This document shows positions 7,818 to 62,095 of a DNA stretch of 64,000 nucleotides, piece after piece. Source of the stretch: Malaciobacter mytili LMG 24559 (GTDB taxonomy: Bacteria > Campylobacterota > Campylobacteria > Campylobacterales > Arcobacteraceae). The stretch is taken from positions 868,001 through 932,000 of the forward strand of contig NZ_CP031219.1 of NCBI RefSeq assembly GCF_003346775.1. Direction: 5' to 3'. A model generated the notes under the pieces. It saw only the letters and a program-made list of their open reading frames with translations. It was not told the DNA's origin and searched no databases. Positions within the stretch are counted from its first letter, which is position 1. Each line of letters starts with the position of its first letter. Both the position numbers and the translations under genes were made by a program.

Positions 7818-8941
7818 TAGATTTTATAAAACAAACTTTTAATACAAATGAATTTATACCTTTACATGAACCAAAATTTATTGGAAATGAAAAAAAATAT
7901 TTAAATGATTGTATTGATTCTTCATTTGTATCAAGTGTTGGTAAATATGTAGATGAATTTGAAAAAAAGATTGCTACGTATATTGGAAGTAAATATGCAG
8001 TTGCAACCGTAAATGGAACAGCTGCACTTCATATTTCCCTAATACTTGCAGATGTAAAAAAAAATGATGAAGTAATTACACAACCATTGACTTTTATAGC
8101 TACTTGTAATGCTATTAGTTATTGTAATGCTAATCCTATATTTGTGGATGTTGATTTAGATACAATGGGAATGTGTCCAAATTCACTTAAGAGTTTTTTA
8201 GAAACAAATTGTGAAATTAAAGAAAATAAGTGCATAAATAAAACAACAGGAAAAACAATAAAAGCTTGTGTTCCTATGCATACTTTTGGGCATCCTTGTA
8301 AAATAGATAAAATAAAAGAAATTTGCGATAATTGGAATATCTCACTTGTTGAAGATGCAGCAGAGAGTTTAGGAAGTTACTATAAAGGTAAGCATACAGG
8401 AACTTTTGGAAAAATTGCAGCTTTTAGTTTTAATGGCAATAAAATTATCACTTCTGGTGGTGGAGGTGTAATTGTTACTGATGATGAAGCTATTGCAAAA
8501 AGAGCAAAACATATTACAACAACAGCAAAAATTGCACATCCTTATGAGTATGTACATGATGAGATAGGATACAACTATAGATTACCAAATATAAATGCTG
8601 CACTTTTAGTTGCCCAACTAGAACAACTAGAAAAATTTTTAGCTTCAAAAAGAGATTTGGCTATAAAATATAAGGAATTTTTCTTAGCAAATAACATAAC
8701 TTTTGTAATGGAGCAAAAAGATTCAAAATCAAACTATTGGCTTCAAGCTATTTTATTAGATAATATAAATCATAGAAACAACTTTTTAGAGTTTACAAAT
8801 AAAAATGGTGTAATGACAAGACCTATTTGGCGACTTATGAATGAACTTAAAATGTTTGAAAATTGCCAATGTACAGATTTGAAAAATGCAAAGTATCTTG
8901 AAGAAAGAGTTGTAAATATCCCAAGTTCGGTGATTTTATAA
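7805..8941 (+). CDS. LegC-family PLP aminotransferase
   Basis: Probable aminotransferase forming the 4-amino sugar in a legionaminic-acid-type pathway. It carries the LegC-group N-terminus (IPLHEPKFIGNE, SSFVSSVGKYVDEFE), VNGTAALH at 69-76, PMHTFGHP at 157-164, EDAAESLG at 183-190 and SFNGNK ending at Lys213, the PLP lysine, followed by GGGG. Its length of 378 is normal. It is related to but clearly distinct from the DegT enzyme at 740, so the locus makes at least two amino sugars. The stop shares a base with the ATG of the acetyltransferase gene, implying coupled synthesis of the transaminase and N-acetyltransferase. Confidence 0.85.
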   Translation: MQKIVDFIKQTFNTNEFIPLHEPKFIGNEKKYLNDCIDSSFVSSVGKYVDEFEKKIATYIGSKYAVATVNGTAALHISLILADVKKNDEVITQPLTFIATCNAISYCNANPIFVDVDLDTMGMCPNSLKSFLETNCEIKENKCINKTTGKTIKACVPMHTFGHPCKIDKIKEICDNWNISLVEDAAESLGSYYKGKHTGTFGKIAAFSFNGNKIITSGGGGVIVTDDEAIAKRAKHITTTAKIAHPYEYVHDEIGYNYRLPNINAALLVAQLEQLEKFLASKRDLAIKYKEFFLANNITFVMEQKDSKSNYWLQAILLDNINHRNNFLEFTNKNGVMTRPIWRLMNELKMFENCQCTDLKNAKYLEERVVNIPSSVIL

Positions 8942-48908: not shown

Positions 48909-51288
48909 TTAATTCTAAACTTTTTTTACCATCTTTTCTAGCAAGTGCTATACAACAAGCAGATTTCTCTAAAATATTATTTTTATTTCCCCATGTTATT
49001 GCATATGTATTTTCAAATTTGATTTCTTCTTCATAACTTAATACTACGATTTTTTCAATATTCATAATTAACTCTTTATAGTTAAAATCTGAAGGTAAAA
49101 CTATTCCAAGTTTTGGACCAGATAATCTATATAAGTCTGTTATTTGTTCTATCTTACTTATATACTCTTTAAAAATCTCATTTGTTTTTGCATAACCAAA
49201 TTTAGTATTTAGTTCTTCTATTGAATGAAGATAAAACTCTATAAAGATAAACTCATTTGGAAGTTCTTTAAAATCTTTTTGAAGTCTATTTACATTTCTT
49301 AATCCTGTAACTTTATCAAAAAACATAGGAATTGTTTTTTGATAAGTAATTATTATGTTTGAGACATTTTTTTCTATATACTCTTTAGTATTTAAATAGA
49401 TATTTTGAAATACATCTTTATAAACTGTTGAGTAGGCAATTTTTAAAGTAAATTGTTTAAATAATGGAATTTGTATTATCTCATACCCTAAGTCTAAAAC
49501 TTCACATTTGTTTTTACATAAACCATCAACTGCACAAAATACTAAGCCATAAAAAATATCTTTTGAGATAAATTCTTCAATATAACTATTGATTTTTTCA
49601 TCATCTAAGTTTTGTTCATTTAAAATCTTAGTTAGTAAATCAGAAAGCTTTTGATTCATATAAAACTTTTTATTTATTTTATTTTGTGTTATATGCTTTA
49701 TTACACTTTTTTCACCTAAAGTATAAAATTTATCATTTTTAACACCATTTACTTCTATTCCCAATTCTTCTATTAAGTTTTTACCATAATTTACAAGAAT
49801 TTTTCTATTTATAGAAGAATACTCATTATTTAGAAGATTATATCCATTGATATTAATATAAATAGCATAATAGTTTTTAGAAAGCTCTATTGATTTAAAA
49901 TCATTAAAATTTGAATAATATAAACTTAAAGATAAAAATACCTTTGTATATATAGAAATAAGATGTGAAGCAACGCTATTTTCATTTATGTAATCAACTA
50001 AAATTTTAGAAAGTTCTTCATCTAAAACAAAATTATTGTGTCTTATTAATTTATTGATTATCACATCACAAATATTTAGTTTATAAAACTCTAAATAGTC
50101 ATTGTGAAACTTCTCCATACTAAGGAATTTTCTTAGAATCTCAATTAAAGTATCATTTTTAATATCACTATACAAAGTAATTGCATAGATGATTTGAATA
50201 GTAGAATTATCAAATTGTTTATTACTAAAAAAATCATTAATAATAATATCAACGCTATCTTCACAATTTCCACTATAAATAAAAATATAATTATTAATTA
50301 GATGTTTTTTTAACTCAAAAATAGTTTTAATTTTTGGTATATTTGTATGAACTATTACTTCTTCATATAAATCTAAAATATTTTTAAATAATGCCAAATC
50401 TTTATATTCATTATATTCATACTCACTTTCTAATTTATAAATCATATTTGATAAAAGAGTAGAAATAGTATTTAAAAATAGTTTATATTCTTTTAATTCA
50501 TTTGAATTTCCAAAAGAAGTATTCTTTGAAAGTTGATACCCTGCAATTGATTTTTCAAAGTTAAAATAAAACTCATCAATTACATCAAAAAGTTTTCTAT
50601 TTGTAATATCAATATAAGGAATATGGGCATAATAAAATAGTAATTTCCCTAAGATATTATTTAAAATATTTACTTTTTCTTCATTTAGTGAAATTTTAAA
50701 TTTTAAGATATTTATAGTTTCAGTTAAAATCTCAATAATAGGATTTATTGTTTTTTTTCTTTGTACATCACTTGAGTTTATTTTACATAAAACATTAATA
50801 ATTTCTATTAGTAAAGTATAGTGAGCAAAAAGTAGTTCAAATTCTTCTTTTATATTTTGGTTTTTTTCTAATTTTTCTTCATATTCTCTAAAAAGTGAAG
50901 AAAGATTATCTAAATTGTAAGATATATAATTTTCAAAAATATTAAAATTTTTTCCAAAAGATAGTAAATTAATTATAGTTACAATTTCTTTAAAAACTAT
51001 AGTTTTCTTATCAAAAAAGATATTATCGATTTTTATTATTATATTTTTTATTAAAAAACTTCTAAAATTGATGTTATGTAGAAGTTGATTTTTTATATCA
51101 TCAGGAAGAGTTTGATTTTTTATAAATAGTTCTCCAATGTAGTTAATCAATGATTTATAATCATCCTCTACATCAAATAAAAACGAGTTGTTTTTTGATG
51201 AAATTTTATATTTTGTGATAATATTAGTTACTGCTATATCTTCTTCTTCTAAATCCAAATAAGCTGTAGCATTATAGTCATCTAGCAT
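48904..51288 (-). CDS. Large protein with degenerate C-terminal GGDEF domain
   Basis: Protein of 794 residues with no signal peptide or membrane helix. Residues 1 to about 640 are mostly predicted alpha-helical with no domain I recognise. The last 140 residues follow the GGDEF fold order (FFDKVTGLRNVNRLQKDF; FIFIEFYLHSIEELNTKFGYAKTNEIFKEY; YRLSGPKLGIVLP), but the signature GGDEF reads SGPKL, so cyclase activity is not expected. GYAKTNEIF matches the GHxxGD region only loosely. The start at ATG 51288 is chosen because GGGAGAAGAG lies just upstream; a TTG at 51303 is possible. A scaffold or c-di-GMP/GTP-binding sensor is conceivable. Confidence 0.7.
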   Translation of the reverse strand: MLDDYNATAYLDLEEEDIAVTNIITKYKISSKNNSFLFDVEDDYKSLINYIGELFIKNQTLPDDIKNQLLHNINFRSFLIKNIIIKIDNIFFDKKTIVFKEIVTIINLLSFGKNFNIFENYISYNLDNLSSLFREYEEKLEKNQNIKEEFELLFAHYTLLIEIINVLCKINSSDVQRKKTINPIIEILTETINILKFKISLNEEKVNILNNILGKLLFYYAHIPYIDITNRKLFDVIDEFYFNFEKSIAGYQLSKNTSFGNSNELKEYKLFLNTISTLLSNMIYKLESEYEYNEYKDLALFKNILDLYEEVIVHTNIPKIKTIFELKKHLINNYIFIYSGNCEDSVDIIINDFFSNKQFDNSTIQIIYAITLYSDIKNDTLIEILRKFLSMEKFHNDYLEFYKLNICDVIINKLIRHNNFVLDEELSKILVDYINENSVASHLISIYTKVFLSLSLYYSNFNDFKSIELSKNYYAIYININGYNLLNNEYSSINRKILVNYGKNLIEELGIEVNGVKNDKFYTLGEKSVIKHITQNKINKKFYMNQKLSDLLTKILNEQNLDDEKINSYIEEFISKDIFYGLVFCAVDGLCKNKCEVLDLGYEIIQIPLFKQFTLKIAYSTVYKDVFQNIYLNTKEYIEKNVSNIIITYQKTIPMFFDKVTGLRNVNRLQKDFKELPNEFIFIEFYLHSIEELNTKFGYAKTNEIFKEYISKIEQITDLYRLSGPKLGIVLPSDFNYKELIMNIEKIVVLSYEEEIKFENTYAITWGNKNNILEKSACCIALARKDGKKSLELK

Positions 51289-51423
51289 CAACTCTTCTCC
51301 CAATTAAATTAAAACATTATATGATTTTTTTACTTACTAATCTTTAAAAACAAAAATTAACCAATATTAAATCTTTTTATCTAAAAATTATTATAATTAA
51401 ATATTATTTAATAATTTATTATA

Positions 51424-52041
51424 TTATAAGCCTTGAAGTAAAATATTCCATAAGTAATCAATTTCTTCATCTGTAAAATTAATTAGTGAGTTTTCTTCAA
51501 ACATCTCTTTTACTTTATCTATAGAAAAAATCTTTGAAAAAGTGCATTGTGGATGAGCAGGTAAAAAGCTTCTAACTAAAGAGATTTTATCTTCAATTTC
51601 AATATCACATAAAAAACAAGTATAATCAGTATGTAGTCTTCCTTCATATTCAAGAAGTTTTAAATAAGCTTGAAGTATTGCTCTTTTTTCATTTTGTTTT
51701 ATCATCATATGAACTAATTCATTTAATAAATTAAAATAAAATTCATCTATTTCTTCAATATCTCTAAAGTGTGAATTAAAAAGCTTTATAAATCTTTGCC
51801 AAGCATACATTTTTTGTGAATTTAATATCCACTGATAATTTAATTGCATAACATCCCTAAGCCTTGAAATATCACTTTTTAAGCTACCTTCTAGTTCAAA
51901 GTCTATTTTATAGCCTATATTTATAGTTGAATGTCTTGCTCCATAGAATCTATATGTAGTATAAATTCTATTTTCTGTTAGTATTATTACTATTAAATCA
52001 TCATCTTTAACGGGTTTTATATCTAAGATATAGCCTTGCAT
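51424..52041 (-). CDS. recO: Recombination protein RecO (short Campylobacterota form)
   Basis: Putative mediator of RecA loading in the RecFOR pathway. It begins MQGYILDIKPVKDDDLIVIILTEN, an OB-fold start typical of RecO (GxVLxxxxxxDxDLIVxLLT). A helical domain follows, with CFLCDIEIED near 142-151 as the remnant of the zinc site and PAHPQC near 163-168. At 205 residues it is shorter than E. coli RecO (242), as in Campylobacter and Helicobacter homologues. It stands alone between AT-rich gaps of about 135 bases on either side, in which no other gene is visible. Confidence 0.82.
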   Translation of the reverse strand: MQGYILDIKPVKDDDLIVIILTENRIYTTYRFYGARHSTINIGYKIDFELEGSLKSDISRLRDVMQLNYQWILNSQKMYAWQRFIKLFNSHFRDIEEIDEFYFNLLNELVHMMIKQNEKRAILQAYLKLLEYEGRLHTDYTCFLCDIEIEDKISLVRSFLPAHPQCTFSKIFSIDKVKEMFEENSLINFTDEEIDYLWNILLQGL

Positions 52042-52139
52042 CTATTAAAATACCTATATGTTTGTTTATTTGTAATACAATTTTTCTAAAAAATTATAAC
52101 AAATCTAAAATAGATATATGCTTCATACGAATTTTATGG

Positions 52140-52145
52140 TATGAT
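52140..52145 (+). promoter_or_regulatory. Candidate -10 for ppnP
   Basis: TATGAT lies 28 bases before the ppnP ATG, in the 132-base gap between divergent recO and ppnP. It overlaps an upstream in-frame ATG at 52141, which argues that the latter is not the translation start. Confidence 0.4.
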
Positions 52146-52173
52146 ATTTGATAAATATAGGAAAGGAAATTTA

Positions 52174-52485
52174 ATGGCAGAATTTAAAAATGTTACTGTT
52201 TCAAAAGCAGCTAATATCTTTTTTGAAGGAAGAATTACAAGTAGATCTATTATATTTGAAGATGGTAGTAGAAAAACACTTGGTATTATGCTTCCAGGAG
52301 AGTATGAACTAAATACTGTTCATAAAGAAGTTATGGATATTCAAACAGGTGTTTTAGAAGTAATGTTACCTGCGGAGGATTGGATGGAAGTTAAAGGACC
52401 TGCTTCTTTTGAAATCCCATCAAACTCAAAATTTAAATTAAGAGTAAAAAGTTTAGTTGACTATTGCTGCTCTTTTATTAAATAA
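52174..52485 (+). CDS. ppnP: Pyrimidine/purine nucleoside phosphorylase (DUF1255 cupin)
   Basis: Single-domain cupin of 103 residues, the size of E. coli PpnP (YaiE), which phosphorolyses several nucleosides. Matching blocks are VSKAANIFFEGRITSRSIIFEDG, KTLGIMLPGEYELNT near 35-49, IQTGVLEVMLPAEDWM and the C-terminal FEIPSNSKFKLRV...DYCCSF. The start is ATG 52174 after AGGAAAGGAAA; the frame stays open upstream to 52141, but that region looks like the promoter. It is monocistronic. Confidence 0.9.
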   Translation: MAEFKNVTVSKAANIFFEGRITSRSIIFEDGSRKTLGIMLPGEYELNTVHKEVMDIQTGVLEVMLPAEDWMEVKGPASFEIPSNSKFKLRVKSLVDYCCSFIK

Positions 52486-52496
52486 GCTGTTATTAA

Positions 52497-52517
52497 CAAT
52501 GCGATTAAATCGCATTG
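52497..52517. terminator. Hairpin between ppnP and the NosL gene
   Basis: CAATGCGAT (52497-52505) and ATCGCATTG (52509-52517) form a nine-bp stem, extendable by one A-T pair, with a three-base loop. It sits between convergent genes. There is no clear T-run on either side, so it may be a weak or Rho-assisted terminator. Confidence 0.5.
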
Positions 52518-52526
52518 TCATATGGC

Positions 52527-53621
52527 TTAGTAAAATAAGCTTTCTTTTACCTCTTCAAATTTTAAAACTTTTTTCCCATAATGTGACTCTTTAAAGCTTT
52601 TTGCAGATTTTTCATCTTTAAAAGGAATTAACTCTTCTCCCATTGGGCCATACACATTTGAACCAATAACATAATAGGCTTTTTTCCCATCTATTTCTTC
52701 TAAAGTATAATAGTCTGTTACTTTTATCTCTTGTATTTGTTCTTTTTTGTGATTATGTGCATATTTAGAAGGATTAAAGTAGAACTTAAACATATCTTTT
52801 GTTCCATCAAAATAATGAGTATGTTCATTTACACTCATTTTTGCAGCCCATTTTGGAAACTTAGCTACAAACATACCACAAACTGGACATTTCACATCTG
52901 TTGGAATTTGCATTTTTTTATTATCATCTGTTGCATAAGCTGGGTTAAAAGTATAAATTGCAACTGCTTGTAGCATATCAGGTTTTAGGTTTTTGCAAAC
53001 TTTATTATCAATTAAATATTGTTTAGCTTCTCCCACTGAATTAAAAGAAGGAAGTTCTTTTTTATTGCACATTGTTTCAAAAATTTTTTTACCTTTTTTT
53101 GCAACTTTTTCTCTTTTTTTATCTACCATCATCTCATCTTTTGGTAAAGCTTTTGTTGCAATTTCTAAAGCTTCATTAAATGTTTTTAGTTCACCACCAT
53201 TTTTAGAGATAAATTCAAGTGCTGCTTCTTTTTGTAAAAAAGCATATTTACTTACCATACTCATAGTTCCTTTTATTGAACTTCCAACTACATAATAAGC
53301 TTTTGTTGCATCTATTAATTTTAAAGATTTTGTATCTACAACCTCTACTTTTTTTATCTTATTGCCAAAATTTTCATTTATTTTTGCAAAACAATGAAGT
53401 GAACAATATTGTTCTTTATGTCCATTTTTAAACTCCACTGCATGAGAAGTTTTATAAAATTTTGTAAGATTCATTCCACATACATTACAAAACTCTTTAC
53501 TACTATCTATTTTTACTAAAGTTGCATCTTTTTTATTAACAGTTTGAAACATTTGATTATTTTGTGATGCAAAAACACTAAATGTTAAAAATAGCATTAT
53601 TATTGAGATTTTTTTAAGCAT
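52527..53621 (-). CDS. nosL: Exported protein with two NosL-type copper-binding domains
   Basis: Periplasmic protein of 364 residues. A signal peptide spans about 1-18 (ISIIMLFLTFSVFA). Domain 1 (about 40-150) has CNVCGM at 45-50 and CSLHC at 73-77; domain 2 (about 240-355) has CPVCGM at 245-250 and the NosL ending YYVIGSNVYGPMGEELIPF. NosL delivers copper to nitrous oxide reductase; each CxxCGM is a Cu(I) site. The linker at 175-227 (GKKIFETMC...MLQAVAIYTF) resembles the fold pattern of a cytochrome c without a CxxCH haem site. No nosZ or other nos gene is in the window. Tandem NosL proteins may act in general copper handling. Confidence 0.82.
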   Translation of the reverse strand: MLKKISIIMLFLTFSVFASQNNQMFQTVNKKDATLVKIDSSKEFCNVCGMNLTKFYKTSHAVEFKNGHKEQYCSLHCFAKINENFGNKIKKVEVVDTKSLKLIDATKAYYVVGSSIKGTMSMVSKYAFLQKEAALEFISKNGGELKTFNEALEIATKALPKDEMMVDKKREKVAKKGKKIFETMCNKKELPSFNSVGEAKQYLIDNKVCKNLKPDMLQAVAIYTFNPAYATDDNKKMQIPTDVKCPVCGMFVAKFPKWAAKMSVNEHTHYFDGTKDMFKFYFNPSKYAHNHKKEQIQEIKVTDYYTLEEIDGKKAYYVIGSNVYGPMGEELIPFKDEKSAKSFKESHYGKKVLKFEEVKESLFY

Positions 53622-53696
53622 TTAACTCTCCTACTTTTTTCTATGATTTTAGTAAAAAAGAGTTAATTATTTGTTAAAAAATAATATATTAAAAAT

Positions 53697-54629
53697 TTAT
53701 TTTTTTAAAATATCTTTAGGTCTTATTTTGAACTCTTTATAAAAGGCATTTGTGAAATTATTTGCAAATTTATAACCTATTTGTAAAGCTACTTCATTAA
53801 TATTATATTCTCCACTTTGAAGCATATTTTTTGCAAGTTTCATTTTGTGAGTTAGTAATAACTGATAAGGAGTAGTTTTATATAACTGTTTAAATCCTTT
53901 TTTTAGTTTTACTTCACTTAAATGAACCCTTTTAGCAAGAGTAACTATTGAAGGTGGATTTTGTAAATTCTCTAATAAAATTTCTTTTGCTTTTAAAATA
54001 GCATTTTTATCATATTCATCAAGAGTTATTTCTTCTTTATTTTTTTGAAGCTTGGAAATTTCTAAAGATAATAACTCAAAAACTTTCCCTTGTATATACA
54101 TATTTCTTAATTCCCCAATTAATTTGCAATTTAATATATCATTTAATAAAAATTGAGATTCTAAACTAGTTAAACTAAAATCTAATAATTGCAAATTTTC
54201 TTTATTATAAAAAAATTTTTCAACTAGAGATTTTTGGAAATTTCTTTTTAGAAAATTTTCATTTAAAATTAATCTAATTTGGCTTATTTGTTTATCTTTA
54301 AACTCTCTAAAACCTTCTGTATTTTTAAATAAAGATATTGTTGTAAATCCTTCTTTGAAGGGTAAAGTTTTTTTATCATAATTATTTGTGTAAGTTGAAT
54401 TACCTTTAGTACATATTGTTATAACAAATTTTCTTTCATTTTGTTTTTTTGCTTCTAAAAATATAGGATTTTTAATATTATAATCTGTTTTTAAAAATAA
54501 AAGACCCTCTTGCAAATATATTTTCTCCATATAATCTACTCCTATTTCAGAAGGAAAACTATTTTTTATAATATTATTTTCACAATTAAAATTGGAATTT
54601 ATTAAATCTTTTAAATACAATCTTGACAT
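53697..54629 (-). CDS. AraC-family regulator, PchR/YbtA-like
   Basis: Regulator of 310 residues. The N-terminal 200 residues form a ligand-type domain without a known motif. The C-terminal pair of helix-turn-helices (about 210-305) is clear: IVTLAKRVHLSEVKLKKGFKQ, then INEVALQIGYKFANNFTNAFYKEF and RPKDIL. It is divergent from a siderophore-type TonB receptor gene, the usual layout for PchR/YbtA/AlcR regulators that respond to the imported siderophore. The 111-base intergenic region holds a palindrome over the receptor promoter. Confidence 0.85.
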   Translation of the reverse strand: MSRLYLKDLINSNFNCENNIIKNSFPSEIGVDYMEKIYLQEGLLFLKTDYNIKNPIFLEAKKQNERKFVITICTKGNSTYTNNYDKKTLPFKEGFTTISLFKNTEGFREFKDKQISQIRLILNENFLKRNFQKSLVEKFFYNKENLQLLDFSLTSLESQFLLNDILNCKLIGELRNMYIQGKVFELLSLEISKLQKNKEEITLDEYDKNAILKAKEILLENLQNPPSIVTLAKRVHLSEVKLKKGFKQLYKTTPYQLLLTHKMKLAKNMLQSGEYNINEVALQIGYKFANNFTNAFYKEFKIRPKDILKK

Positions 54630-54668
54630 TTTAACCTTCTATAATAGAAATAAAACCTTTTATAATAT

Positions 54669-54706
54669 TATTGATATTGACTATCAATATTTAAGAATTA
54701 TATACT
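54669..54706 (+). promoter_or_regulatory. TonB-receptor promoter with overlapping Fur-like palindrome
   Basis: TTGACT at 54677-54682 and TATACT at 54701-54706 (18-base spacer) form a plausible sigma70 promoter 35 bases before the receptor gene. The inverted repeat TATTGATA (54669-54676) and TATCAATA (54682-54689) centres on the -35. Its length, AT-richness and GATA/TATC arms resemble a Fur box. A PchR-like site is the alternative. Confidence 0.55.
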
Positions 54707-54740
54707 ATAAATATTAAATTTTTATAAAAGGTAAAAATAA

Positions 54741-56726
54741 ATGAAAAAAACAAAAGTATTATTATCTTTTTCTTTATTGCTTATAACTGAACTATTAGCA
54801 AAGAATATTACTGCATTAGATGATATTACCGTAACTGCACAAAAGAAAGAAGAAAGAGTTATTGATGTACCTATTAGTTTAAGTGTATTTGATGAAATAT
54901 CAATTGAAGATAAATCTATCTCATCTTTAGAAGATATTGGAAAATATACTCCAAATTTGATACTTTATAATACAGGACAAGAGGGATTAATCGTTCCTTC
55001 AATTAGAGGAATAAGTGGAAATGTTTTATCTTATTCAACACCTGTAGGGCTTTATGTTGATGGGATTCCAACTACTAGTGCTTTTGGTTTTGATGACGCA
55101 TTAGGTGATATTGAAAGAATAGAGGTTTTAAGAGGGCCACAAGGAACACTTTATGGTAAAAATTCTGAAGCTGGAGTTATAAATATCATTACAAAACAGC
55201 CAAATAATGAAATAAGTGGAAAAATCTTTTCAACAATAGGAAATAATAAAAGAAAAGATGTTGGATTTAATATATCAGGGCCAATAGTAAAAGATAAATT
55301 TTATGTAGGTGTTACTTATAAACATCAACAAAAAGATGGTTTTATAAAAAATAGTCTTACAAATGAGTATATAAATGATAAAAAAAGTGATTATGGAAAA
55401 CTTATTTTACGAACTACTCCAACTGATAATTTAGATTTATCCTTAATAATCTCAAAAAATAAAGAAGATAATGGTGCTCATAATTGGGTAAGTTCTAAAG
55501 ATAACAAAAAGGAAGTAAGTTCAAATCTAAAAGGTTATTCAACTCCTATAGATACCACTTATGCTTTGAATATTAATTATAATTTAGATGAATATTCTAA
55601 AATAAAATCAATAACTACAAAAAAAGAGTATAAAGATAAAGCTATTGTAGATGCAGATATGACTCCTTTGACTTTAAGGCATATATATAAAAATAATGAA
55701 TTAAATACAATTTCTCAAGAATTAAGATATGAAACTTTATTTGATAAAGTAGAACTAATTTCAGGAATATATTTAGATAAAAAAAATGATGATTTACATA
55801 CAAGAATAGTAACTCCTTTTAATCCAACAGGCTTTGCCAATCCACAAGAAATGAATTCAAAAAGTGTTGGAATTTTTACAAATATTATTTATCCATTAAA
55901 TGAAGATTGGATTTTAAAAGCAGGAGTTCGGTATGACAAAGAAAAAAAACAATTAGAAGTTAAAAATACAAATATTGATTTAGAAAGTAGTTATAGCAAT
56001 ATTTCTCCAAAAATAGGAATTCAATACAATATAAATCAAAATCAAATGAGTTATTTTACAATAGCAAAAGGTTATAGAAGTGGTGGATTTAATCCCTATG
56101 CTCCAGTAAATAAACAAGCTTATGGTGAAGAAAAGTTAATCTCTTATGAGCTGGGATATAAAGGTATATTTTTTGATAATCGTCTAAAATTTAATACAAA
56201 TATTTATTATATGGATATAAAAGATATGCAAGTTGAAGAGGCACCAGTTGCTGGTACTATTTATATGGTAAATGCAGCAACGGCAACTTCAAAAGGTTTT
56301 GAAATGGAAGTTGAAGGAATGATAACTAATGAATTAACTTTATTTGCAAGTGTTGGAATAAATAAAACAACATTTGATAATTTTAGTGATTTAGCAGGTA
56401 ATTATAGTGGAAATTATAATCTTCTTGCTCCCAAATATAATTTTAATATAGGAACTCAGTATAGAGCAAATAATGGCTTATATGCAAGAGTTGATTTTAA
56501 TGGTTATGGAAAAACATATTTTGATAAAGCAAACACAAACTATCAAAAAGCGTATAGCTTAGTAAATATGAAAATGGGTTATGAAACAAATAATTTTGAT
56601 ATATATTTTTATGTAAATAATCTATTGGATAAAAATTATGATGCTATTGGTGCATATTTTAATGGAACAACAACTATTTTAAGAGAAGAACAAGAGTTTG
56701 GTATTAAATTAGCTTATAGATTTTAA
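54741..56726 (+). CDS. TonB-dependent siderophore receptor, FyuA/FptA-like
   Basis: Outer-membrane ligand-gated barrel of 661 residues. A signal peptide covers about 1-20 and is followed by the TonB box region LDDITVTAQ at 26-34. The plug domain contains IPSIRGI-like VPSIRGISGN, GLYVDGIPTT, and IEVLRGPQGTLYGKNSEAGVINIITKQP near 128-156. The barrel includes IAKGYRSGGFNPYAP near 440-454 and YVNNLLDKNYDA, and ends in AYRF, with the terminal Phe required for outer-membrane insertion. The layout by eye is closest to FyuA, the yersiniabactin receptor. It has its own promoter and is followed by a methyltransferase and a permease gene. Confidence 0.88.
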   Translation: MKKTKVLLSFSLLLITELLAKNITALDDITVTAQKKEERVIDVPISLSVFDEISIEDKSISSLEDIGKYTPNLILYNTGQEGLIVPSIRGISGNVLSYSTPVGLYVDGIPTTSAFGFDDALGDIERIEVLRGPQGTLYGKNSEAGVINIITKQPNNEISGKIFSTIGNNKRKDVGFNISGPIVKDKFYVGVTYKHQQKDGFIKNSLTNEYINDKKSDYGKLILRTTPTDNLDLSLIISKNKEDNGAHNWVSSKDNKKEVSSNLKGYSTPIDTTYALNINYNLDEYSKIKSITTKKEYKDKAIVDADMTPLTLRHIYKNNELNTISQELRYETLFDKVELISGIYLDKKNDDLHTRIVTPFNPTGFANPQEMNSKSVGIFTNIIYPLNEDWILKAGVRYDKEKKQLEVKNTNIDLESSYSNISPKIGIQYNINQNQMSYFTIAKGYRSGGFNPYAPVNKQAYGEEKLISYELGYKGIFFDNRLKFNTNIYYMDIKDMQVEEAPVAGTIYMVNAATATSKGFEMEVEGMITNELTLFASVGINKTTFDNFSDLAGNYSGNYNLLAPKYNFNIGTQYRANNGLYARVDFNGYGKTYFDKANTNYQKAYSLVNMKMGYETNNFDIYFYVNNLLDKNYDAIGAYFNGTTTILREEQEFGIKLAYRF

Positions 56727-56735
56727 GGAGTTTAA

Positions 56736-57725
56736 ATGAAAAATATAAATAAATATTTAAATATGTTATTAATTCAACAAAAAACAGAAATTTTAGAAAT
56801 AGCTTTAAATTTAAAAATTTTTAAATTAATACAAGAAGGTGTAAATAGAGTTTTTGATATTTCTTTAAAAATAAAAATAGATGATTCTAAAACTAAAATA
56901 TTATTGGATAGTTTAGTTTTTATGGAATTACTTGAAGTAAAACAAGATAAATATTATGTTACACAATTTGCTAAAGAATTTTTTATTTGTGGAACTTCTT
57001 CATATTGTGGTGATGTTTTTTTACATAGAAAACAAATGATAGAAAATGGAAAAAAGATGATTAAATCACTATTAGAAGAAGATATAAAATTAAAAGATAA
57101 TAAAACTGCAAAACTTTGGGCTGATGCTTCAAAAAAATTTTTAAAGCAAGAACAAAGAAATCTAATTGCTCCAATTGCACTTGATATTATAAAAAATTTA
57201 AAAGAGTTTAATTTTATAAATAAAATGCTTGACTTAGGTTGTGCTTCTGGAATTGTTGGTTTAGAAATTACAAAAAATCATCCAACTTTAAAAACTACTC
57301 TTTTTGATTATAAAGAAGTAACAGATATTGCAAAAGAGCATATTAAAGAGTATAAATTAGAAAAGCAAGTTACAGTTTTAAGTGGAGATATTGAAAAAGA
57401 TGAAATAGGAACAAACTATGATTTAATTTGGTGTAGTAATATTTTCTATTTTTTTAAAAATAAAAAAGAAGTGATTGAAAAAATTTACAATTCCTTAAGT
57501 CCTAATGGTATTTTAGTAAGTTGTCATGTGGAGATTGATACAAAAAATAATCTTGATGAAAATAGTTTTTTTTATTTTTTATCTTTAAATTTGCAAGGTA
57601 AAAACATATTAAAACCTATGGAATTATCAAAAATTTTTGAAGAAGTAGGATTTAGTACTATAAATTCATACACAACATATAAAACTCCTATGACACCAAG
57701 TCAAATTCATATTTGTAAGAAGTAA
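56736..57725 (+). CDS. O-methyltransferase-like SAM enzyme in the siderophore island
   Basis: SAM-dependent methyltransferase of 329 residues. The N-terminal 100 residues resemble the winged-helix dimerisation domain of plant/actinobacterial-type O-methyltransferases (small helices, then LLDSLVFMELLEVKQDKYYVT). The Rossmann domain starts near 160 with MLDLGCASGIVGLEI (motif I) and continues TLFDYKEVTDIA, LIWCSNIFYFF and LSPNGILVSCHVEID. AAGGAG precedes the ATG, nine bases after the receptor stop, and the permease gene follows after three bases. It may modify an imported siderophore or a metal-bound product, or sense SAM; the substrate is unknown. Confidence 0.8.
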   Translation: MKNINKYLNMLLIQQKTEILEIALNLKIFKLIQEGVNRVFDISLKIKIDDSKTKILLDSLVFMELLEVKQDKYYVTQFAKEFFICGTSSYCGDVFLHRKQMIENGKKMIKSLLEEDIKLKDNKTAKLWADASKKFLKQEQRNLIAPIALDIIKNLKEFNFINKMLDLGCASGIVGLEITKNHPTLKTTLFDYKEVTDIAKEHIKEYKLEKQVTVLSGDIEKDEIGTNYDLIWCSNIFYFFKNKKEVIEKIYNSLSPNGILVSCHVEIDTKNNLDENSFFYFLSLNLQGKNILKPMELSKIFEEVGFSTINSYTTYKTPMTPSQIHICKK

Positions 57726-57728
57726 ATT

Positions 57729-58907
57729 ATGAATCAATTGACAAAAAAAAATATCTTATTTTCAATTTTATTTACATCAATTTTAACTCCTATGATTTTT
57801 TTTGTTATGGGACTTCCTATGATTTTGCAAATAAAAGGTTTTGATGCATCATTAATTGGAATTTTTCAATTAGCTGGTTTACCAATGATATTTAAGTTTT
57901 TAATGTCACCTCCAATAGATAAAATAGTATTTGATAAAAAACATTATAAAAAATGGATATTTTATATAGGAATATTTTATATTTTTCTATTAATTGTAAT
58001 TAGTTTTTTATCCTTAGAAAATAGTATTTATACGGTTTTTATAGCTATTTTAATAACAGCTTTTGTTTCGACTTTTATGGATATTCCACTTAATGCTTTG
58101 GCAATTAAAACTTTTAAAAAAGAAGAAAGAATTAGTGCAGGAAGTTATAAAATAATTGCCTATGGTACGGCATCTTTATTGGGAGGTGGAGTTTTTTTAC
58201 TTATTTTTAATTATTTAGGTTGGAATTTTACATTTATTTTAATGGCTTGTTTTATTCTTTTTTCACTATTTGCTTTACATTTTATAGAAGAAAATAATGA
58301 AGTTATAAATACAGAGAAAATATCTTTAAAAAATATAATCACTTTTTTTAAACAAAAAAATATTGGAATTTGGATTTTTATTTTAAGTTTTTATTTTGTT
58401 TCAATAAGTGCTCTTTGGGTATTTATGAAGCCATATTTAATAAATAAAGGTATATCTGCTAATGATGTAGCTATTTATGTGGGAATTTATGGAAGTTTTG
58501 TAGCTATTTTAGGAGGAGGTTTAAGTAACTATATTGGGCAAAAATTTTCAAAGAGAAATTTACTTATTATTTTTATGATTTTTAATATTTTAAGTACATT
58601 AATTTTAATTTTTATTGAATACTATAATCTAACATTTTATTATCTAATAATAAGTATTACTTTTATAGCTTTAGCTATTTCTTTATCTTCAGCTATAATT
58701 TTTTCTATGATAATGGATTATTCAAGGAAAGAATCACGAGCAATTGACTATTCAATTCAATCAAGTATTTTTTCATTTACTAGGATTATTTCAGCCGTAA
58801 TAGCAGGAATTATAGTCTCAAATTTTGGTTTTGCAAAAATGTTTATTTTTGAGCTTATATGTTTAATTATAGTTGTATTTTTTATTTATAAAAAATACAA
58901 AGATTGA
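57729..58907 (+). CDS. MFS permease, RhtX/FptX-like siderophore importer
   Basis: Twelve-helix inner-membrane transporter of 392 residues. The N-terminal FVMGLPMILQIKGFDASLIGIFQLAGLPMIFKFLMSPPID pattern and the loop FDKKHYKKWIFYIG (after helix 2) recall the AmpG-related RhtX/FptX group that imports siderophores without an ABC transporter. FVSTFMDIPLNALAIKTFKKEERISAG near 117-143 is the mid-loop of that group. With the receptor and the AraC regulator it gives the PchR-FptA-FptX set. The family call is firm at MFS level; the substrate is inferred. Confidence 0.8.
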   Translation: MNQLTKKNILFSILFTSILTPMIFFVMGLPMILQIKGFDASLIGIFQLAGLPMIFKFLMSPPIDKIVFDKKHYKKWIFYIGIFYIFLLIVISFLSLENSIYTVFIAILITAFVSTFMDIPLNALAIKTFKKEERISAGSYKIIAYGTASLLGGGVFLLIFNYLGWNFTFILMACFILFSLFALHFIEENNEVINTEKISLKNIITFFKQKNIGIWIFILSFYFVSISALWVFMKPYLINKGISANDVAIYVGIYGSFVAILGGGLSNYIGQKFSKRNLLIIFMIFNILSTLILIFIEYYNLTFYYLIISITFIALAISLSSAIIFSMIMDYSRKESRAIDYSIQSSIFSFTRIISAVIAGIIVSNFGFAKMFIFELICLIIVVFFIYKKYKD

Positions 58908-58976
58908 ATTGAGGGAAAGTATGTTTTGTAAATAATTAGATTAACTCAAAAGTAAAAATAACAAACTTTTTAGTCA

Positions 58977-59008
58977 AAATATCTTAAGATATTTACAAAA
59001 TATATAAT
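58977..59008 (+). promoter_or_regulatory. tetR promoter with perfect palindromic operator
   Basis: AAATATCTTAAGATATTT at 58977-58994 is a perfect 18-bp palindrome. TATAAT follows at 59003-59008, so the palindrome covers the -35 region of the TetR gene that starts at 59021. This is the expected layout for an autorepressed TetR regulator. Confidence 0.65.
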
Positions 59009-59020
59009 ATGGAACAATAA

Positions 59021-59617
59021 ATGCCAAAAATAGTTAACTTTGATGAAAAAATTGATTTTATATGTGAAAAAGCATACGAAGAATTTATAAAAAATGGAGT
59101 AAACAATTTTTCTTTAAATAAATTTATTGAGTCTTTAAATATGTCAAAAGGACAATTTTATTATTACTTCAAAACAAAAGAAGAGTTGATTTTTGAAGTA
59201 ATTGATAAAAAAAGTGAAAAATTTTTTATTGATACGGAAAAAGAGATAAATGAGGCTCAAACATTTTCTGAGAAACTTTTAGCTCTTTTTTCTTTCTATT
59301 TAGTTCTATCAGATCCTGAAAATAAATCTTTTGATAAATTAATGAAAGATACATTTTATATGTATTTAAATGTGGAAAATGAATTTATAAAAGAAAAAAA
59401 TGCTGAGTGCTATGATTATTTATTTAGTGTTACAAATGAAATCTTTGATGATATGATTGCAAAAAAAGTTTTGAAAGAAAATGCTAAAAATTTTATTCCA
59501 AGTTTAATTGCAACAGCAGATGGAATGTATCTGCAATCTATGATTTTAGAAAATTATGACTTGAAAAAGAATCTAATTGATTATATTAAAATGTTAGAAG
59601 ATTTATTAAAAAGATAA
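59021..59617 (+). CDS. TetR-family transcriptional regulator
   Basis: Regulator of 198 residues. The N-terminal helix-turn-helix is typical: ICEKAYEEFIKNGVNNFSLNKFIESLNMSKGQFYYYFKTKEELIFEVID at about 13-61 (written here in parts: NNFSLNKFIESLNMSKG is the recognition region). The C-terminal 130 residues are a helical ligand domain without identifiable ligand. It has its own promoter with a palindrome, separated by 113 bases from the permease gene. Likely targets are itself and perhaps the MATE gene at 59962, whose upstream region has a related sequence. Confidence 0.85.
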   Translation: MPKIVNFDEKIDFICEKAYEEFIKNGVNNFSLNKFIESLNMSKGQFYYYFKTKEELIFEVIDKKSEKFFIDTEKEINEAQTFSEKLLALFSFYLVLSDPENKSFDKLMKDTFYMYLNVENEFIKEKNAECYDYLFSVTNEIFDDMIAKKVLKENAKNFIPSLIATADGMYLQSMILENYDLKKNLIDYIKMLEDLLKR

Positions 59618-59629
59618 ATTTTATATTTT

Positions 59630-59927
59630 TTACATTTGTTTTTCAAACTTAAACATTTCATCATCTTCCTCATCAAAATTTTGATTTGACTTAAAATTTG
59701 GATCGGGATGATATTTACTAAAATATTCCACAATTTTAAAGCCACACTTATTTACATAAAAATGAATATTTCTTTTTTCAAAATAGGGTGTAGTAGTTTC
59801 CCATACTTTTGTCTTTGGATGATTTTTTCTATTGCTTTCCAAGCTTTATATCCACTACCTTGACTATGACAATTAGTTGATATAAAAAATAATATTTAAT
59901 TTATTTGTATGGTTTTTCATAATTCAT
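59630..59927 (-). pseudogene. GNAT acetyltransferase remnant, frameshifted and N-terminally deleted
   Basis: The 3' part encodes a GNAT C-terminus ([20 protein letters not shown], then [20 protein letters not shown]). Just upstream, in another frame, reads [20 protein letters not shown], the acetyl-CoA loop (QGxG) and following helix, so a shift has occurred near 59815-59825 in an A-rich run. Further upstream, ATGs at 59927 and 59920 run only 8-15 codons before stops, and the first 70 or so residues of a normal GNAT are missing. A short TTG-initiated frame of 70 residues remains open but cannot form an active enzyme. Confidence 0.75.
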
Positions 59928-59961
59928 TTCCTATTTATATAGTTTTATTAATTCTATTTTC

Positions 59962-61284
59962 TTAAGTGATTTTTCTAGGGTTAAATTTTCTATATAAAAT
60001 TACTGCGATTATAAAAGTAATAAATTCAGCCATTGGTATTGCTATAAAAATACCATCTAAATCAAATAAAAATGGTAATGTAAATATAAAAAATACAGGA
60101 AAAATAAAACTTCTTGATAACGCAATAATCATTGATTGTAAAGGCTTATGAATTGCAGTAAAATAAGCAGAAATCACAAGATTAATACCATCAAAAAGAA
60201 AAACTATCCATATAAATGTAGCAAAATTTAAAACTAATTGTTTTGTTTTATGATTAGTATCTTCTAAAAAAATATTTGCAAGTTTATCTGGAATAAATAT
60301 AATTAAGCTTATCATTATAAGACCAACTAAACTTGTAGAAATAAAAGCTAATTTTAAAAACTCTTCTATTCTTTTACTCTGTTTTGCACCAAAGTTTTTA
60401 CTAATAATTGGTTGTAAAGAGTCACTTATTCCAAAACTTATCATTATTCCAATAAATAAAAGATAATTTATAACTGTAAATGCTGCAATTCCTTCTACAC
60501 CAAAATTCTTTATCATAACATAGTTAAAAATTAAAGTCATTATTCCTATTGAAATTTCATTTACAAACTCTGAAGCACCATTATAACAAGCTTTTGCAAT
60601 TTGAATATAACTTCCTATAGGTTTTACAAATCTAAGAGTTGCTTTTTTTGAAAAAAAATGAGGTAAAAGAATAATCAACAAAGTAAGTTGAGAAATACCT
60701 GTAGCTAGAGCTGCTCCAAAAATACCTTTTTGTAAATATACAATCATAAACCAATCTAATATAAAATTTATTAGAGCACTAGAAAGTAAAGCTATAAAAG
60801 CAAGATTTGGTCTATTATCAATTCTTACAAAATAATCTAAAACTATTCCAATCATTAAAAAAGGAATAAAAAATAACATAATAGATAAATACTGTATGGC
60901 AACATTTGTTAAGTATTCATCTGCCCCAAAAAAATGTAAAATAGTCTCAATATTTAAAAATAAAACACTGCAAATTATAAAACTAAAAATAGTTACACAA
61001 ATCATCGTTTTAGTAAAAATAATAGAGGCTTTTTTAATTTCTCCTTCACCTATTAGTTTTCCAGCTACAACACTACTACCAATTGCTAACATAAAAGCAA
61101 ATCCAAATAAAAAAGAGAAAATAGGTAAGCTTATATTTATTGCTGCAAGTCCAAAATCTCCTACATAATTTCCTATAAAAAATCCATCAACTATATTTGC
61201 TGATGAAATTGCTAACATACCTAATACAGATGGTATTGAGTATTGAAAAAAGACTGATAATATTTTATTTTTTGTTACATTCAT
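59962..61284 (-). CDS. MATE-family multidrug/cation efflux transporter
   Basis: Twelve-helix membrane protein of 440 residues with the two-fold MATE repeat: FQYSIPSVLGMLAISSANIVDGFFIGNYVG at the N-terminus, AGKLIGEGEIKKASIIFTKT, and IGISFG-like MISFGISDSLQPIISKNFGAKQ in the second half. Acts as a Na+ or H+ antiporter exporting organic cations or drugs in this family. It is monocistronic, minus strand, 34 bases from the GNAT remnant. A near-palindrome lies just upstream of its start. Confidence 0.88.
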   Translation of the reverse strand: MNVTKNKILSVFFQYSIPSVLGMLAISSANIVDGFFIGNYVGDFGLAAINISLPIFSFLFGFAFMLAIGSSVVAGKLIGEGEIKKASIIFTKTMICVTIFSFIICSVLFLNIETILHFFGADEYLTNVAIQYLSIMLFFIPFLMIGIVLDYFVRIDNRPNLAFIALLSSALINFILDWFMIVYLQKGIFGAALATGISQLTLLIILLPHFFSKKATLRFVKPIGSYIQIAKACYNGASEFVNEISIGIMTLIFNYVMIKNFGVEGIAAFTVINYLLFIGIMISFGISDSLQPIISKNFGAKQSKRIEEFLKLAFISTSLVGLIMISLIIFIPDKLANIFLEDTNHKTKQLVLNFATFIWIVFLFDGINLVISAYFTAIHKPLQSMIIALSRSFIFPVFFIFTLPFLFDLDGIFIAIPMAEFITFIIAVILYRKFNPRKIT

Positions 61285-61299
61285 ATAAATTTCTTTTTC

Positions 61300-61316
61300 G
61301 TATCTTATTATGATAC
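61300..61316 (-). promoter_or_regulatory. Near-palindrome upstream of the MATE gene
   Basis: GTATCTTATTATGATAC has matching arms GTATC/GATAC plus inner TA/TA with one mismatch pair, centred at 61308, 16 bases before the MATE start codon. The TATCTTA half is shared with the palindrome in front of the TetR gene. A repressor site is likely; the identity of the repressor is inferred. Confidence 0.45.
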
Positions 61317-61428
61317 ATAGCTAAATCAAAGAATTTAAGTATTTGTTTCTTGATTTTCTATGATAGTTTTCTTTATTTATTATTCTAATAATATTTTCTA
61401 AAAATAAGTAATTTAATACTAGCAAAAG

Positions 61429-61475
61429 AATACTTTCATTTAAATAAACCACTAGTTTATTTAAAAAGTATTTTT
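61429..61475. other. Long AT-rich hairpin in the MATE-DoxX intergenic gap
   Basis: An 11-bp stem TTTAAATAAAC (61439-61449) with GTTTATTTAAA (61455-61465) around CACTA is extended by an outer AATACTT (61429-61435) with AAGTATT (61466-61472), leaving a three-base bulge. TTTTT follows on the plus strand at 61471-61475. No coding frame is present in the 270-base gap 61285-61554. It resembles a plus-strand terminator or a structured RNA, although no plus-strand gene precedes it. Confidence 0.4.
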
Positions 61476-61533
61476 AAATATTTAGGTTTCTTTTTAATAA
61501 AGTAGTAAGTTTTTTATAGTTTAAAAAGTGAAG

Positions 61534-61559
61534 AATAGACTCTTTTAAAAGAGTCTATT
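61534..61559. terminator. Hairpin at the end of the DoxX gene
   Basis: A perfect 26-base palindrome: AATAGACTCTTTT (61534-61546) and AAAAGAGTCTATT (61547-61559). The DoxX stop codon (61555-61557 on the minus strand) lies inside one arm. T-rich sequence follows on the plus side, but the minus side (downstream of DoxX) lacks an immediate T-run, so termination efficiency is uncertain. Confidence 0.55.
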
Positions 61560-61980
61560 TTCTATATTTTGCATCTAGGCTATATTTACCTGCTCCTATA
61601 AATATTATTGAAATAGAAATTAATAGATAAATTAAAGGTAATTCAATTACTAGACCACCTGTTTCTTCTAAAGTAAATATATCTGTACTATGGGCTAAAA
61701 ATATGGCAAAAAACATTGTTAAAGCAAAAAATAAAGATGAAATCCTTGTAAATAAACCAATGATTATCAAAATTGGAAAAATAATTTCCCCCAAATAAAC
61801 ACCATAAGCTATAAATTCAGGAAGTTTTGCTTGTGTAACTAGGAATTTTATTCCATCAATTCCATTAAAAAGTTTAAAAAAACCATGAAATAACATAAGT
61901 CCTGCTATACTTAATCTTAAGATTAATTTACCAATATTTTCATTTAAAACACAAGCTAATCTATTTTCGCAACTTGTCAA
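61555..61980 (-). CDS. DoxX-family membrane protein
   Basis: Four-helix inner-membrane protein of 141 residues. ILRLSIAGLMLFHGFFKLFNGIDGIKF near 19-45 is the DoxX signature (R...G..fl.hG..Kl), followed by YGVYLGEIIFPILIIIGLFTR near 59-79. DoxX relatives are linked to oxidative stress or thiol/sulfur metabolism, but no specific role is visible. The start is a TTG at 61980 with AAAAGGA and a six-base spacer; no ATG fits upstream. It is divergent from the chemoreceptor gene. Confidence 0.82.
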   Translation of the reverse strand: MTSCENRLACVLNENIGKLILRLSIAGLMLFHGFFKLFNGIDGIKFLVTQAKLPEFIAYGVYLGEIIFPILIIIGLFTRISSLFFALTMFFAIFLAHSTDIFTLEETGGLVIELPLIYLLISISIIFIGAGKYSLDAKYRK

Positions 61981-62095
61981 AATGTATCCTTTTTTTAATT
62001 TTTGGGATTATATTTTTTTAATGTTTAATAATTGTTAAGTAATAAAATTTTAATAATAATTTATCAAAAAATAAAAATTTTTAGATAAATTTTGT

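Follow-up and report, generated by a model that had tools for sequence, protein, structure and literature searches.

A putative metallophore uptake module with a resident methyltransferase in Malaciobacter mytili and its recurrence in other bacteria

Organization of the locus

We analyzed a 64,000-nucleotide stretch (the window; contig NZ_CP031219.1) of the complete genome of the Arcobacteraceae member Malaciobacter mytili LMG 24559 (3.04 Mb, 2 contigs). A first-pass annotation, made from the sequence alone, had described four genes at 53697-58907, and all four open reading frames were found to be intact there. The genes and the predicted elements in their vicinity are as follows.

53697-54629, minus strand: AraC-family regulator, 310 aa, divergent from the operon (HTH_18, E 5.8e-16 at 231-309)
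54634-54646 and 54655-54667, plus strand: two 13-bp direct repeats, 21 bp apart, upstream of the -35; candidate AraC-type operator
54672-54686, no strand assigned: Fur-box-like palindrome TGATATTGACTATCA (12/14 consensus positions, shuffle p about 0.02)
54677-54706, plus strand: predicted sigma-70-type promoter of the receptor operon, TTGACT-18-TATACT (10/12 consensus matches)
54741-56726, plus strand: TonB-dependent receptor, FyuA-like, 661 aa (Plug and TonB_dep_Rec_b-barrel, Pfam)
56736-57725, plus strand: SAM-dependent methyltransferase, 329 aa (Methyltransf_2 architecture, Tyr238/His264 signature)
57729-58907, plus strand: MFS permease, AmpG/FptX-type, 392 aa (MFS_1, E 3.4e-30)

Only 9 bp separate the receptor and methyltransferase genes, and 3 bp the methyltransferase and MFS genes. 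The methyltransferase is thus tightly set between receptor and permease, as had been noted, and because the gaps are so short, the sequence suggests that the three genes form one operon.

The locus had also been called an island. Indeed, the segment 53697-63890 fills a site between two conserved genes, a NosL-like gene on the left (52527-53621, two NosL-type domains) and a conserved 128-aa gene, desulfoferrodoxin-type by eye, on the right. Three congeners lack the module and have other cargo between the same flanks, namely an iron-chelate-type ABC importer and a DUF364 protein (G003 and G002) or unrelated large ORFs (G005). Since the same flanks enclose different cargo in congeners, we consider the site to be a variable cargo site. 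A link between the module and the adjacent NosL-like gene was considered and rejected, since this gene forms part of the conserved flank and other genes neighbor the module in relatives.

Conservation of the module

Orthologues were searched for in 60 relatives, in 397 genomes of the phylum, and in one scan of GTDB contigs. Strong methyltransferase orthologues were present in 10 of the 397 phylum genomes, representing five genera, and two further matches in the phylum were weak, generic enzymes. The closest named match in the genome collection was that of Aliarcobacter vitoriensis, with 77% identity. A search for the same four-gene order had been proposed as a check: the divergent AraC gene and the receptor-methyltransferase-MFS order were found in all 11 further Campylobacterota loci that were long enough (L039 to L042, L045, L046, L063 to L065, L067, and L068), with the MFS of L067 matching over 222 residues only. 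The AraC regulator shares 51 to 80% identity with its module orthologues in this phylum. In L068 (genome G170), the methyltransferase gene is frameshifted in a run of seven T at about 7896-7908, while the receptor, MFS, and AraC genes stay open; the frameshift may reflect a sequencing error, decay, or phase variation.

Three loci carry an insertion of about 236 bp between the receptor and methyltransferase genes (L039, 9569-9804; L042, 7765-8000; L065, 8414-8648). Translation of the L039 insertion gave a DUF2798 membrane protein of 74 aa; the L042 and L065 insertions resemble it at the DNA level.

Outside Campylobacterota, the evidence comes from plasmids only. The complete gene order recurs on a plasmid of Vibrio nigripulchritudo, with identities of 35% for the receptor, 26% for the methyltransferase, 29% for the MFS, and 26% for the AraC protein. 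The order is AraC-MFS-receptor-methyltransferase in Azospirillum. In Rhodobacter capsulatus and Rhodovulum it is AraC-receptor-methyltransferase, with a NitT/TauT-type ABC importer next, and the Rhodovulum module adjoins a full 2,3-dihydroxybenzoate siderophore synthesis cluster. Pantoea sp. At-9b harbors only the AraC and methyltransferase genes, divergently arranged, with the receptor absent nearby. The permease therefore varies between versions while AraC and methyltransferase stay, since Rhodobacter and Rhodovulum have an ABC importer in place of the MFS. The alignments with the AraC partners of Vibrio and Pantoea (25 to 26% identity) cover most of the protein, N-terminal part included. 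A chance neighborhood of the four genes was rejected, because the order recurs across phyla. As a control, we inspected seven annotated plasmid loci, and a TonB receptor beside the methyltransferase was absent in all of them.

On the R. capsulatus plasmid pRCB133 (L076/L091), nos genes are found about 10 to 15 kb away from the module, as is a pseudoazurin gene, and a copper link of this version is possible. In Burkholderia multivorans (L081), an unannotated cluster combines a CoA-transferase-like gene, a ligase-methylase fusion, an ABC pair, a receptor, and an AraC gene; this cluster resembles quinolobactin-type synthesis.

Regulatory elements

The spacer between the AraC and receptor genes is 111 bp long, and within it the Fur-like palindrome overlaps the -35 of the predicted promoter. 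Promoter predictions across the region were no commoner than in shuffled sequence; the sequence of the predicted operon promoter is kept in aligned relatives. Fur-box-like sites of at least 12/14 occur three times in the 64-kb window, the operon's palindrome among them. A palindrome was found at the same place with 12/14 positions in L040, L041, L045, and L064, 11/14 in L039 and L063, and 10/14 in L046. The Vibrio spacer holds a Fur-box-like site of 13/14 (p 0.0005), and a 13/14 site lies upstream of the Azospirillum AraC gene. No clear Fur box was found in the Rhodobacter and Rhodovulum spacers or beside the Azospirillum receptor.

The two 13-bp direct repeats are identical at 12/13 positions in the window (shuffle p 0.004), at 13/13 in L039, and at 12/13 in L064, and they were not clear in more distant loci.

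Receptor, permease, and ligand

The best PDB relative of the receptor was the FyuA/pesticin receptor 4epa (E 4.8e-50, residues 29-648), far ahead of the next matches, CntO (7.7e-21) and then FptA (4.2e-14). With its Plug and β-barrel domains, the protein is FyuA/FptA-like, as the first-pass annotation had it, and against the subfamily TIGR01783 it scored 190 bits, under the cut-off of 223.5. The ligand is probably a phenolate- or aryl-type chelator of the kind that FyuA and FptA handle. The resemblance of the receptor to FyuA and the linkage to YbtPQ/PchHI-like ABC genes are no more than pointers to a thiazoline.

The proposed FptX/RhtX-like identity of the permease was not upheld. The MFS protein reached 69.8 bits against RhtX/FptX (TIGR02718, curated cut-off 356) and 127 bits against the AmpG family (TIGR00901), also below cut-off, and it matched the AmpG structure 8zgz with an E of 3.8e-19. 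It is therefore closer to AmpG than to RhtX/FptX.

A YbtQ-like ABC gene and two MFS genes lie near the module in six relatives; the protein P0015 of one relative matched YbtQ with an E of 1.2e-137. The source genome has such a YbtQ-like/MFS cluster away from the module (C1:387000-398000; G000, L074). The FptX-like MFS of this cluster was found, at 55% identity or more, in 7 of the 10 module carriers versus 3 of the 387 other genomes (Fisher p 5e-11, a statistic that ignores kinship). In P. aeruginosa, uptake of both pyochelin-Fe and PQS-Fe requires FptX together with PchHI (PMC10846271). In the source genome (G000, L074), L039, L040, and L042, the YbtPQ-MFS-MFS cluster ends with a small membrane protein that is MntP-like by eye.

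No siderophore-synthesis gene was found in the region. Ligase, sulfur-transfer, or NRPS genes are absent from the module and adjacent DNA, and for a fused or neighboring adenylate ligase with sulfur-transfer genes, as in thioquinolobactin-type biosynthesis, the range 50000-62000 was negative. Domain searches of the complete genome retrieved neither an NRPS condensation domain nor an IucA/IucC NIS synthetase. An own siderophore made via NRPS or NIS was rejected, as these searches found no such domain. The earlier claim of siderophore piracy hence stands in part: the region lacks a biosynthetic gene, and for the whole genome the basis is two negative domain searches. Because the Rhodovulum module adjoins 2,3-dihydroxybenzoate synthesis, the ligand class may vary, and piracy is not general.

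A methyltransferase clade with an altered catalytic pair

The methyltransferase matched Methyltransf_2 with an E of 1.7e-15 and 57.4 bits, above the gathering cut-off of 22.3, which bears out the O-methyltransferase architecture assigned to it at first; the dimerisation domain gave a weak match just below threshold (Pfam). The best PDB match to its profile was 2r3s (E 7.7e-19), with RedM and DsyB also among the nearest. A fold search with the predicted structure agreed with the profile search on the nearest relatives; the model was of moderate quality (pLDDT 68) and served for fold class only.

A maximum-likelihood tree placed the 15 receptor-linked methyltransferases and that of Pantoea on one side of a branch with a support of 98/99, and a comparison set of 11 family members from other settings plus one QbsL-like fusion domain on the other. 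By sequence, the receptor- or AraC-linked methyltransferases are thus one clade.

The family-typical catalytic His and its Asp/Glu partner were not found in the methyltransferase, which has Tyr238 and His264 instead. At the position of the catalytic His, 15 of the 16 clade members harbor Tyr and Vibrio harbors His, compared to 8 His, 3 Asp, and 1 Glu in the other 12 rows. At the end of the following strand, all 16 have His, and the other rows have Asp (7), Glu (4), or Gly (1). We take these two aligned positions to be the His-Glu pair of plant COMT. Because the pair is Tyr238/His264, an oxygen acceptor is not assured. DsyB, an S-methyltransferase, is also without the catalytic His in the profile alignment, and judging from the residues, the acceptor atom may be O, N, or S. 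We know of no clade member with a known substrate.

Interpretation and alternatives

The first-pass annotation had read the locus as a complete uptake route with a resident methyltransferase. We arrive at the same view for a metallophore, and the comparative data tie the methyltransferase to uptake. Gene order and its conservation, the Fur-type site, the clade, the altered catalytic pair, and the ABC linkage were established by comparing sequences; the ligand class, the role of the ligand as methyl acceptor, and the purpose of methylation are inferences. The explanation that we favor, for which we consider the case to be evenly balanced, is that Fur represses and AraC controls the import of a ferric chelator of foreign origin, and that the ligand is methylated in the cytosol. 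Iron starvation would lift Fur repression, and the receptor would bring in the ferric complex, which the MFS permease, alone or with a YbtPQ/PchHI-like ABC pair encoded elsewhere, would move to the cytoplasm. The AraC protein would sense the complex and activate the operon, and the methyltransferase would methylate the imported ligand in the cytoplasm. As to the purpose, we prefer the capping of a metal-binding group: the ligand would release its iron and, once free, could no longer bind iron again or hold the regulator in its active state.

The uptake part of this explanation is very probable, and the imported iron-binding molecule is apparently made by other organisms. The recurrence of one methyltransferase lineage beside importers in distant bacteria suggests a chemical modification of the imported molecule in the cell, and the imported ligand is, by a little, the likelier methyl acceptor. 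The purpose, metal release or disposal, is tentative. The Pantoea pair of AraC and methyltransferase without a receptor would fit a cytosolic step that is seen by the regulator. Counting against our explanation, the frameshift in G170 may mean that the methyltransferase is dispensable. The Rhodovulum module beside synthesis genes and the receptor promoters of the Alphaproteobacteria, where a Fur box is not clear, also count against it.

An alternative, which we regard as unlikely, is that detoxification comes first and iron gain is secondary: the receptor would admit antibiotic or signal chelators, such as hydroxyquinolones or thiocarboxylates, and the methyltransferase would cap their OH, N, or S. 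In P. aeruginosa, FptA and FptX indeed carry PQS-Fe3+ besides pyochelin (PMC10846271). Such a role would also be consistent with the varied small aromatic or sulfur acceptors of this fold family and with the retention of AraC and methyltransferase in Pantoea, where no receptor is nearby. However, the module has no conserved efflux gene or additional resistance gene, and the Fur-type control and the coupling to a YbtPQ-like importer point to nutrition first. A literature search for quinolone-methylating detoxification enzymes gave nothing usable.

It is improbable that the methyltransferase acts in biosynthesis in the manner of QbsL, making or completing a small chelator for the cell itself from a precursor that is common or scavenged. 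QbsL O-methylates xanthurenic acid en route to quinolobactin; it is an adenylate ligase-methylase fusion that acts on this acid (PMC13122635). A ligase-methylase fusion accompanies AraC, an ABC pair, and a TonB receptor in the Burkholderia plasmid relative, and siderophore synthesis genes adjoin the Rhodovulum module. The QbsL-like fusion domain, however, falls outside the methyltransferase clade, and the lack of ligase, sulfur-transfer, and NRPS genes around the module and of condensation or NIS domains in the genome likewise argues against synthesis. Similarly improbable, finally, is that the AraC protein binds the methylated ligand as a check that it has reached the cytoplasm: AraC and methyltransferase do travel together even without a nearby receptor (Pantoea), and the AraC alignments cover most of the protein, with the presumed sensor part, but the sequence demands no modified inducer, and in the pyochelin model PchR responds to the unmodified siderophore.

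Import followed by ligand methylation thus remains our preferred reading. To our knowledge, the exit of iron from aryl or thiazoline siderophores in the cytoplasm and the fate of the used ligand are poorly understood, and our literature search returned no relevant paper on siderophore methylation after uptake and no description of a receptor-methyltransferase-MFS module. If true, metallophore methylation would be a third siderophore-unloading route besides reduction and hydrolysis. A methyltransferase lineage that stays with the receptor and the regulator in different phyla, even where the permease is exchanged, would offer a direct handle on both questions: a single enzyme with its residue signature, in an operon that is conserved. 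Campylobacterota would also be known to use a wider range of chelators. The broader generalization, that a Tyr/His-marked enzyme family in Campylobacterota, Gammaproteobacteria, and Alphaproteobacteria methylates imported metallophores in the cytoplasm to release the metal or end the signal, is rather doubtful at present.

Comparison with known systems

The Family 2 small-molecule O-methyltransferases (2r3s, RedM, PhzM, ASMT, and DnrK) were the top fold-search matches of the modeled methyltransferase. Like these enzymes, it has N-terminal dimerisation-type helices and a SAM domain, and the SAM motif LDLGCASG is intact; unlike them, it has Tyr238 in place of the catalytic His and His264 in place of the Asp/Glu partner.

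With QbsL of the thioquinolobactin cluster, the methyltransferase shares the broad fold family, and in the QbsL-like Burkholderia cluster the methylase likewise lies beside AraC, an ABC pair, and a TonB receptor. However, the QbsL domain is fused to an adenylate ligase, whereas the methyltransferase of the module is a free-standing protein, is encoded within an uptake operon, and falls in a different clade.

The module differs from the yersiniabactin and pyochelin systems in that biosynthesis genes are missing, the MFS is nearer to AmpG, and a methyltransferase is added; we know of no methyltransferase in either uptake system. It resembles their uptake parts (FyuA-YbtPQ-YbtX-YbtA and FptA-FptX-PchHI-PchR) in that it combines a FyuA-like receptor, an AraC regulator, and an MFS permease, and a YbtQ-like ABC gene is present as well, close to the module in six relatives and, in M. 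mytili, in a cluster of its own.
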